This document shows, in pieces, positions 3,624-23,902 of a stretch of 59,540 nucleotides of DNA. The translations under genes and the position numbers were made by a program. The stretch covers positions 1-59,540 of the forward strand of contig NZ_QMIM01000029.1 of assembly GCF_003287355.1 (NCBI RefSeq), written 5' to 3'. The stretch is from Halorubrum sp. 48-1-W. Lineage in GTDB: Archaea; Halobacteriota; Halobacteria; Halobacteriales; Haloferacaceae. How positions within the stretch are numbered: position 1 is the stretch's first letter; each line of letters begins with the position of its first letter. The notes below the pieces were generated by a model that was not told where the DNA came from, ran no database searches, and saw only the letters and a program-made list of their open reading frames with translations.

Positions 3624-3773
3624 TCAGAGCACGCTTACGGCGAGGTACGGGAGCACGAAGACCGCGAAAAATATCAGTCCCGTCGCGACCGCGTAGCCGG
3701 CGCCGACCCCCGCGAGCGCCAGCCACCCGTCGTCGATCCCTCCGATCCCGCCGTCGACACCGTCGAGCGCCAT
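3624..3773 (-). CDS. Small one-TM membrane protein (49 aa), hypothetical
   Basis: A 49-residue frame begins at the ATG at 3773 with a glycine/aspartate-rich N terminus (MALDGVDGGIGGIDDG), followed by a continuous hydrophobic stretch that ends at the C terminus (GLIFFAVFVLPYLAVSVL). A TATA-like GTTAAGCC on the minus strand near 3797-3804 lies about 25 bases upstream, matching a leaderless transcript. The gene is convergent with the ABC permease gene, 28 bases away. No function can be assigned. The acidic head plus single helix and the well-placed promoter argue for a real gene. Confidence 0.6.
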   Translation of the reverse strand: MALDGVDGGIGGIDDGWLALAGVGAGYAVATGLIFFAVFVLPYLAVSVL

Positions 3774-3865
3774 ACCCACCGGTACGGCGGTGTCGGCTTA
3801 ACCGTTGCCGTCGGTCCGATCGCGCGCCGCCGCGCTCACGCGTCGTTCGCGTTTCCCACCACTAC

Positions 3866-22152: not shown

Positions 22153-22260
22153 ATGGAACGAACGAAGACTCTCATCCGAGAGGCGACGGACGGTGTCGAA
22201 GCCGGATCGACAAACGCCGAACGCGCACCGGCGAACGGTGCCCCGGTCGGTGACCGATGA
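22153..22260 (+). CDS. Candidate 35-aa small protein coupled to the aldolase gene
   Basis: A frame of 35 codons begins at the ATG at 22153 (MERTKTLIREATDGVEAGST) and ends in a TGA that overlaps the ATG of the HpcH/HpaI aldolase gene (ATGA at 22257-22260). A CATAACAATT box lies about 35 bases upstream. The peptide is charged and helical at the start, then Ala/Asn-rich; it has no known motif. The overlap suggests a leader peptide whose translation delivers ribosomes to the aldolase start, or a real small protein. Length alone cannot prove coding. Confidence 0.45.
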   Translation: MERTKTLIREATDGVEAGSTNAERAPANGAPVGDR

Positions 22261-23051
22261 CCCCGTCTCAACCCGCGAACGACCTCGTCACGACCCTCGA
22301 CGCCGGGGACGTCGCACTCGGGATGCTCGACAACACGTACAGTCCGACGCTCGTGGAGTTCTACGGCGAGCTCGGCGTCGATTTCGTCTGGTTGGACTTC
22401 GAACACGGCGGGCCGGACCCGTGGGACGCGAGTCGGGTGGAGGGCCTGCTCCGTGCGGGTGAGCGGACGGGCGTCGAGTTGCTCGTGCGGCTTCCCGATA
22501 CGGACCCGACGCTCGTCCGGAAGGCGCTGGACCTCGGCGCGCGAAACGTGTTCCTCCCGCGCGTGGAAACCGCCGAGGAGGTCCGCGACGCGGTTCGATC
22601 CGCTCGGTTTCGTTACGAGGGGGGCCCCGGTGACCGAGGGCTGGCGTCGCCGCGGGCCAGCCGCTGGGGGCTCGCCGACGACTACGTCGCCACCGAAGAC
22701 CGCGAAACCCTCGTCGGCGTGACTATCGAAACCGAGGCGTCCGTCGAGAACCTGGACGAGATCCTCGCCGTCCCGGAGCTGGGATTCGTCTTCATCGGTC
22801 CGTTCGACCTCTCGGTGGCGCTCGGCCACCCGGGCGAAGTCGACCATCCGCGGGTACAGGAGGCTGTCGAGACGGTTCGATCGAAGGCCGTCGACGCGGA
22901 CGTCCCCATCGCCGGACTCGGATTCGGGATGGACGACGTCAACGAGAAGGCGTCGAACGGCTACCAGATGCTGAATCTCGGGAGCACGACCGCGGCGCTC
23001 GAAGGGACCGTCACCGGCTGGCTCGACGCCTACGAGCAAAACGACGCCTGA
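22257..23051 (+). CDS. HpcH/HpaI-type class II aldolase
   Basis: The 264-residue TIM-barrel enzyme of the HpaI/citrate-lyase family shows the catalytic and metal-binding blocks: WLDFEHGG (residues 43-50, with the base in EHG), LVRLPD, NVFLPRVETAEE (pyruvate and metal site), IETEASVENLDEI and FIGPFDLSVALG. Such enzymes cleave or form 2-keto-3-deoxy-type hydroxy acids with pyruvate and a divalent metal. The true substrate cannot be told. The start overlaps the stop of a short upstream frame. The enzyme is cytoplasmic. Confidence 0.9.
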   Translation: MTPSQPANDLVTTLDAGDVALGMLDNTYSPTLVEFYGELGVDFVWLDFEHGGPDPWDASRVEGLLRAGERTGVELLVRLPDTDPTLVRKALDLGARNVFLPRVETAEEVRDAVRSARFRYEGGPGDRGLASPRASRWGLADDYVATEDRETLVGVTIETEASVENLDEILAVPELGFVFIGPFDLSVALGHPGEVDHPRVQEAVETVRSKAVDADVPIAGLGFGMDDVNEKASNGYQMLNLGSTTAALEGTVTGWLDAYEQNDA

Positions 23052-23059
23052 GGGGTCGG

Positions 23060-23520
23060 TCATAGCTCAACTCGGGGCGTTGCTGTCGGCCGTTTATTTT
23101 GATCAGCGATTCTACGGAGGCTACCGCCAAACCTCCAGCCGTACCATTATATACTATCCACCGTGGTCGGTGGCGAACACCTCCAAAGCCCCAGTCGCTC
23201 GGCTGTACGTGACTGGCTCTCGAACAGCGGTGAACACCTCCAAAGCCCCAGTCGCGAGGACTCGCGCGCCTCGTTGCGCGCTTCAGTCGCTCGCGCTGCT
23301 CGCTCCTTCCAGTGCTTCCGTCGGCGTGCTTCGCCCTCGCGACTGCCCCTTTGAGTCCCACCCGTACCGCACAGCACCGCACCTCACGCCTCCCCAGCCT
23401 CGCCGCTCACGCCCTTCGGGCGTTCGCGGCGTCCCTCGCGGACTCCTCGCGGTCGCCGTCGGCGACCGCTCGGAGGCGCGCCACCGCACCGCATCGTTCT
23501 TTATAAATAATCGTCGCCGC
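23060..23520. repeat. Non-coding, hairpin-rich repeat element (possible RNA)
   Basis: A 24-base motif, GAACACCTCCAAAGCCCCAG plus TCGC, occurs twice at 23175-23198 and 23232-23255. Stem-loops follow: 23264-23281 (6-bp arms), 23410-23422 (CGCCC/GGGCG, loop TTC) and 23449-23469 (9-bp arms, loop GTC). Boxes resembling TATA lie at 23146-23155 and 23500-23512; the latter could serve leftward transcription through the element. Open frames here show codon use unlike the genes around and contain GLWRCSP-like repeats, which I judge artefacts. I recall similar CACCTCCAAAGCCCCAG strings elsewhere in haloarchaeal genomes. Confidence 0.6.
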
Positions 23521-23572: not shown

Positions 23573-23902
23573 TCAGTCCTCTTCGATCGCGGCCAGCGCC
23601 TCTTTGGGCGCGCCACACTCCGGACACGAGTCCGGCATCCCTCCCTCCAGATCGCCCATCTCGCCGCACTCCGAACAGCGCCACATCAGGTACCCCTCGC
23701 CGAACTCCTGTCCCGGCACGGTCTCCGTGTCGTCCCCGCCGGTCGAGCCGCGTTCCGCGATCGAGACCTCGAACCCGTCGGAGGTGTACCCGCTGACCTG
23801 GCCGAGGTGCCGTCCGTCCTCGTCGTACACCGACTCGCCCGGATCGATAGGCTTCTCGTCGGGGACCGATCCCGACGACGGCTCCGCCGCCTCCTCGCTC
23901 AT
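23573..23902 (-). CDS. Rubredoxin-like zinc-ribbon protein (DUF7130-like)
   Basis: The 109-residue acidic protein has a PRC-barrel-like middle (ESVYDEDGRHLGQVSGYTSDG, residues 22-42) and a C-terminal zinc-ribbon with MWRCSECG and CPECGAPKEAL, the four cysteines of a rubrerythrin/rubredoxin-type knuckle. It may be an electron-transfer or structural metal protein. It starts at the ATG at 23902, and the next minus-strand gene ends 46 bases upstream, so the two may share a transcript. Its role is unknown. Confidence 0.82.
   Translation of the reverse strand: MSEEAAEPSSGSVPDEKPIDPGESVYDEDGRHLGQVSGYTSDGFEVSIAERGSTGGDDTETVPGQEFGEGYLMWRCSECGEMGDLEGGMPDSCPECGAPKEALAAIEED

Follow-up and report, generated by a model that had tools for sequence, protein, structure and literature searches.

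The window that we analyzed, a stretch of 59,540 nucleotides from Halorubrum sp. 48-1-W, contains some 460 bases (23060-23520) that a preliminary description, made from the letters alone, had picked out as hairpin-rich and non-coding. On one side lies a gene for an HpcH/HpaI aldolase (22257-23051) and on the other, on the minus strand, a gene (23573-23902) for a 109-amino-acid DUF7130 protein with a rubredoxin-like zinc ribbon. The aldolase flank was found in seven relatives of the same genus, where the zinc-ribbon neighbor was not found beside it, and the window site itself is for that reason undatable. The open reading frames listed across the stretch are not credible, in agreement with the earlier judgment that it holds no plausible gene. 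A search for intrinsic terminators (a stem and then a run of T) gave none between 22900 and 23700, and no sigma-70 promoter was found with a model that is not archaeal.

What occupies the gap is one copy of a repeated element, which extends on the minus strand over 23172-23505. We placed its limits there because the matches found by DNA search elsewhere in the same genome mostly start at 23172 and end near 23502. Its anatomy comes from an alignment of 30 copies, in which, read leftward, an upstream part that varies is followed by domain A, whose two hairpins surround GAGGGA, and then by the motif GAGGCTGGGGAGGYGTGAGG, domain B, and tandem units. In the window (all features on the minus strand), the leftward TATA-like box that had been reported is present as TTTATAAA at 23500-23507, upstream of domain A. 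Domain A runs from GCGGTGGCG to GTGAGG (23382-23487), as judged from 83 Halorubrum segments delimited by these anchors, of which a few are short or rearranged. Its hairpin 1 (23443-23475) is the inverted repeat I5, with arms at 23443-23458 and 23460-23475, and its hairpin 2 (23402-23430) is a hypervariable stem recognized by covariation among the Halorubrum segments. The alignment places a conserved, single-stranded-looking motif, GAGGCTGGGGAGGCGTGAGG, between domains A and B at 23382-23401. Domain B, which spans GGTGGGACTCAAAGGGGC to GGGGCTTTGGAGGTGTTC in the 30 aligned copies, is a predicted imperfect hairpin of 131 nt (23232-23362) that scores 150.6 bits with our covariance model of the domain (R1) and holds 31 covarying pairs. 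It contains a GGG/GGG internal loop, whose 5' side is at 23346-23348 (alignment columns 15-17, each conserved in 41 or 42 of 42 copies) and whose 3' side is at 23246-23248 (columns 118-120).

The duplicated 24-mer that had drawn attention to the region is exact: its copies, at 23175-23198 and 23232-23255, lie 57 bases apart, and none was expected from 100 dinucleotide shuffles of the window. The sequence, the alignment, and the shuffles identify the copy at 23232-23255 with the 3' arm of domain B, and a core search and a comparison of units assign the other to a tandem 57-nt unit (23175-23231, minus strand). A repeat search found a degenerate third unit of 67% identity at 23116-23142 on the same strand, and in other copies of the element GAGCGRCTGGGGCTTTGGAGGTGTTC is repeated in additional units, 51 or 57 nt long. 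The duplicated 24-mers are, on this comparison, the predicted 3' arm of domain B plus its extra tandem copies. A plain array of binding sites, which had been offered as one explanation, accounts poorly for them, the 24-mer being the 3' arm of a long conserved hairpin. We also observed that TTTATAA recurs within the tandem 3' units and that blocks of about 50 nt, each a pair of hairpins placed back to back, interrupt the element at a few positions that recur, in domain B of own-genome copies L086, L092, L035, L089, L025, L029, and L041 and in domain A of L019, L021, and L147. By description, these blocks may be similar to the 52-bp terminal-only PATEs (PMC3119063).

The core had also been thought to recur elsewhere, and searches showed that the element is multi-copy both in its own genome and in other haloarchaea. 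A 481-base query gave 51 matches in the own genome by DNA search, and a 20-nt core, with up to 2 mismatches allowed, gave 73 sites (40 forward and 33 reverse) against 0 for the reversed control. Model R1 found at least 38 matches in the draft; since several copies sit at the ends of contigs C5, C9, C12, C19, C29, C32, and C40, the repeat probably breaks the assembly, and 38 may be an undercount. The same model gave at least 150 matches in one sister genome (G129, 150 of 150 scored candidates), 139 and 130 in two others (G139 and G349), and 5 to 106 in each of ten genomes of other genera. All 22 other genomes drawn from the genus carry the element, with at least 18 to 26 matches each (best 18 candidates per genome scored). 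Across the order Halobacteriales the domain B model matched at least 293 of 392 genomes, in 76 of 95 genera (E ≤ 0.001). A phylum-wide draw of 294 genomes gave 43 with a match, every one of which is the own genome or belongs to its genus, family, or order, with no match seen outside the order in that draw; in the order-wide and phylum-wide counts the best 8 or 11 candidates per genome were scored. Named relatives among the 80 stretches listed, of at least 119 that matched, include Halorubrum, Natrinema, Haloterrigena, Halostagnicola, Natronococcus, Haloarcula, Halosimplex, Halorussus, Halobaculum, and Haloparvum. In other genera the core takes the form GGGTGGGACTGAAAGGGGC...GGGGGCTTTC and occurs singly or as divergent pairs, and domain A is optional outside Halorubrum.

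We aligned 42 copies of domain B from the own genome and from relatives and named 31 base pairs, which covary across these copies. (Six of 48 domain-B sequences were omitted from this alignment, A1, before modeling, for their register or unusual ends, and the 48 never included copies with large inserts.) The pairs are formed in 98.1% of 1295 cells, as against 86.0% in shuffled alignments and 28.8-42.7% when the positions are slid. In 21 of the 31 pairs both sides are altered among the copies, and none of 500 shuffles was as high as the observed alignment on any of five measures. Variation is almost absent from three tandem G-A pairs and from the GGG/GGG internal loop. The imperfect pairs comprise 41 G-T, 5 A-C, and 20 others. 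When the pairs were re-counted on 113 model matches, 65 of them from two other genera, pairing was kept with different bases, in an alignment that was fitted to the model and is thus biased towards the structure; the outermost pair, C-G in Halorubrum, is for the most part G-C in G047 and G372. The copies of domain B are 128-133 nt long, and most differ by single bases, so that no reading frame is kept; we accordingly rejected a protein-coding relic, the copies differing by single-base indels. The pairing tests on domain A, in which both registers were allowed, showed that hairpin 2 pairs fully over 5 bp in 54 of 64 distinct segments (after shuffling, 12.7 on average and 23 at most) and that the 4 pairs of hairpin 1 beside its tandem G-A average 3.50 formed over 46 segments, compared with 2.89 when shuffled (largest, 3.17).

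Which strand folds is indicated by the imperfect pairs. The ratio of G-T to A-C is 36:2 in Halorubrum, 19:1 in G047, and 17:8 in G372, and because each G-T here would read as A-C on the opposite strand, the surplus of G-T identifies the leftward strand as the one that folds. Energy alone does not choose, because both strands give similar values: the leftward strand folds at -170.5 kcal/mol with a z score of -3.2, and the plus strand has a z score of -3.6. The stem-loops seen in the preliminary description are real, hairpin 1 of domain A being an example. The sequence is clearly neither unique in its genome nor unstructured, two of the outcomes that were to refute that description. We find, then, a fold kept by covariation on one strand, as is asked of a structured RNA: these alignments show that one strand, here the minus strand, carries a predicted conserved fold with two hairpins in domain A and, in domain B, a long hairpin with tandem G-A pairs and the GGG/GGG loop. 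This finding bears on the idea that the element is a double-stranded DNA site, used by a nucleoid protein or in organizing the chromosome, whose palindromes are protein-binding sites. Such a site would fit the chromosome-wide spread of the copies, their mixed orientation, and their apparent exclusion from a plasmid (see below), but the stems vary freely while pairing is kept, which is the opposite of what a sequence-specific site would do, and with G-T far above A-C the strands are not equivalent. We consider it very improbable.

Of the three possibilities raised at the outset (a mobile-element relic, a structured RNA, or a binding-site array), a putative structured RNA is the best fit to the strand-specific covariation. 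An RNA is supported by the strand-specific compensatory change together with the presence of a TATA-like box in part of the Halorubrum copies. Of 108 Halorubrum upstream regions, about 21 have a comparable box 10-20 nt ahead of domain A (our own count, with a few regions mis-anchored), and the AT content is 0.45-0.48 at that distance, compared with 0.32-0.39 further upstream. In about ten Halorubrum copies (L237, L241, L235, L132, L243, and L131 among them) the TTATAAA box is preceded, about 31 nt further upstream, by a second AT box, TATTTAAA. The case for RNA is weakened by the fact that most of the Halorubrum copies counted are without a box and that none was seen in the centers, roughly 30 bp long, of the divergent pairs read in G372. 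It is weakened further by the loops of hairpin A1, 50 of 66 of which are triloops, and by the share of G-T pairs, which is 3.2% in the element and 6.9% in 16 tRNAs from the same loci. Triloops are more usual in DNA than in RNA.

Both of these last features would suit a mobile DNA of the REP or PATE sort, in which the strand folds as single-stranded DNA, is moved by an HUH (Y1/IS200-type) or other transposase, and owes its fold to selection for mobility rather than for a host function. High copy number, inverted pairs, MITE-like ends, and presence/absence differences between related sites would suit it as well. In G372 the divergent pairs sit between recurring outer ends, and among 20 loci adjacent direct repeats of 8-11 bp were found in L275, L277, L280, L282, and L283, the other 15 having none or non-adjacent ones. 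In the own genome, copies L411, L414, and L415 (503, 538, and 464 bp) are flanked by ends that resemble GGCTCTGTTGAAATCCT; direct repeats match by eye at 7 of 8 bases in L414 and L415, and L411 and L412 have none. Similar ends bound a 1463-bp unit that carries an IS5-family transposase (NF033579) and a second ORF (L410:71-1533, contig C17), and the same ends enclose the adjoining L410:1637-4404, which has a TnpB-family gene. Of the copies, only the MITE-borne L411, L414, and L415 of the own genome were found to share TIRs with an IS. The MITEs that carry the predicted folded module thus have ends of at least two kinds. No MITE-like ends were found at the window copy, whose contig (C15) is absent from the own-genome TIR list, and most Halorubrum copies seen are likewise without recognizable MITE ends. 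Hence the suggestion of a mobile-element relic holds in that some copies lie inside MITE-like units and fails for the window copy, and "relic" would be the wrong word for a family that appears to be under selection.

The TIRs and candidate TSDs that were found point instead to DDE-type mobilization of the MITE-borne copies. Nor do the best-scoring copies listed, which are spread along three chromosomes, show a strand bias or strand runs (36/35, 22/26, and 14/17). A collection of plasmids gave five records with partial matches. The Halorubrum plasmid pHAR01 (247,617 bases), which carries several IS and TnpB genes and on which about ten or more copies would be expected at the density of the sister chromosomes, had no intact copy, its matches being two weak ones (E 6.7e-5 and 1.5e-4) and one at 0.42. 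Where tested, copies are chromosomal and not plasmid-borne. Spread by viruses was rejected: no viral contig had an exact core, and there was no credible phage match, two Burkholderia phage matches (E 6e-4) lying in a holin gene. A further argument against mobile single-stranded DNA is that the structure is kept at orthologous sites, where a copy that does not move should decay. We regard that explanation as rather unlikely, and we consider it more likely, though not strongly so, that the element would act as RNA than as single-stranded DNA.

The orthologous sites came from a comparison of the flanks of 390 element occurrences in the loci compared, from which flank matches of more than 98.5% identity, of less than 250 bp, or with gaps of more than 2500 bp were dropped. 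There remained 44 copy pairs in the same orientation and 5 inverted pairs, with both flanks matching at a mean identity of 72-95%. In the same-orientation set 1046 helix pairs were unchanged, 180 had changed on both sides with pairing kept, 47 had changed on one side with pairing kept (G-T-type), and 63 were broken; the inverted set gave 107 unchanged, 36 both-side, 5 one-side, and 3 broken. Many loci enter several site pairs, so these events are not independent, and gene conversion between copies, which are themselves not independent, could also spread stems that are already compensated. In one inverted case a Halorubrum site is paired with one from another genus (L061 and L282), and the inversions may be explained by loss of different arms of an ancestral divergent pair. 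Another 22 site pairs were without the element by regular expression; some were missed by the pattern, and a few have a gap short enough for an empty site. Taken with the alignments, the counts show that compensatory change maintains the predicted fold, whether copies are compared within a genome, across genera, or at orthologous sites.

These counts also weigh on the view that the copies are inert passengers, a structured module that MITEs of several IS families copied by chance from old and recent master copies, with no selection at the sites. That view would accommodate the presence of copies within IS5-type ends in the own genome and different ends in G372, as well as a copy number that varies widely, 99 of the 392 genomes of the order being without a match under strict filters. 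It sits badly with the excess of compensatory changes over broken pairs at orthologous sites (180 versus 63), with covariation that spans genera, and with the many Halorubrum copies that have no recognizable MITE ends. We think it improbable.

The explanation that we lean toward, with somewhat more confidence than doubt, is that the element represents an ancient dispersed non-coding family of the order Halobacteriales, with a conserved one-strand fold that would work as RNA, mobilized by IS as a passenger of MITEs and kept because it is useful to the host. In Halorubrum, transcription would begin from the TATA-like box 10-20 nt upstream and yield a leftward RNA of about 300 nt. As repeats of the 3' arm of domain B, the tandem 3' units might compete for the 5' arm and so give alternative folds. 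The family would spread mainly in IS-mobilized MITEs, and copies would then persist for long periods at a given intergenic site, the folded product being of use to the host. This explanation is weakened by the mixed orientation of the copies relative to neighboring genes, in which no cis-regulatory logic is visible, and by the five orthologous site pairs that carry the element inverted. The copies are intergenic (5 loci have an apparent gene overlap according to our own rough gene caller) and have no fixed orientation. Among Halorubrum single copies with both neighbors called, the arrangements were ++ 7, +- 11, -+ 7, and -- 10; with no orientation rule, a cis-regulatory element tied to its neighbors was rejected. 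More tentatively, and with some doubt, we propose that the family could be a haloarchaea-wide, multi-copy structured RNA of about 130-300 nt with up to at least 150 copies per chromosome, which stays for long periods at fixed intergenic sites, is largely excluded from plasmids, serves a function in the host, and has tandem 3' arms that form a switch-like tail.

Repeats of comparable design are known. Bacterial REP and BIME sequences consist of hundreds of intergenic palindromic units, often in inverted pairs, and have a RAYT partner; the element shares with them its intergenic palindromic units and inverted pairs, but REPs are about 20-40 nt long, compared with 131 nt for the unit of the element or about 300 nt with domain A. 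The BOX elements of Streptococcus pneumoniae are modular dispersed repeats whose internal units vary in number and whose transcript is structured. The likeness of BOX to the element, in being a modular dispersed repeat with variable internal units, is one of description only; the BOX host is unrelated, whereas the covariation of the element spans a whole archaeal order. BOX elements are mentioned in PMC10969869. The MITEs, PATEs, and SMRs of Haloquadratum walsbyi, as described in PMC3119063, are transposase-free, multi-copy, intergenic repeats, as is the element, some copies of which have IS-like ends. SMR-A is about 110 bp, and PATEs have near-terminal palindromes related to IS605 ends, with no ITR and no duplication (PMC3119063). 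The same paper describes "SwitchRepeats," in which one repeat occupies one position in opposite orientations and to which we liken our five inverted site pairs. Unlike the element, the Haloquadratum repeats are not defined there by a conserved fold ("covari" and "secondary structure" have no occurrence in the main text of PMC3119063), and the element is set apart from the HqIRS types by description only. The repeats of halovirus HF2, according to PMC8707807, are 56-58 bp long and have motifs that differ from those of the element.

Rfam 15 gave no family at its gathering threshold, the window region reaching only 11-12 bits, far below, and ten loci of other genera likewise gave none; the structured-RNA classes in Rfam 15 resemble the element in their compensatory evolution, conserved internal loops, and tolerance of G-T. 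The element is unannotated wherever annotation was checked. Literature searches, which included the core strings and had a scope outside supplementary files and most subscription papers and preprints, found no description of it, so that one may exist elsewhere; none was found in the available parts of PMC10927574 and PMC2864571. By these comparisons the element was previously unlisted, is of a known kind (a dispersed structured repeat), and is set apart by its order-wide covariation.

At about 130-150 copies of some 300 bp each, the family would account for roughly 1-1.5% of some Halorubrum chromosomes of about 3 Mb. Its copies provide a natural experiment in compensatory evolution and can be used to test how a structured module that moves comes to settle durably in a genome. 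Were the family RNA, it would rank with the most numerous structured RNA families in any archaeon. Finally, we note a weak match to model R1 elsewhere in the window, on the minus strand at 3734-3831 (19.8 bits, E 0.04), which may be a decayed copy or a chance match.
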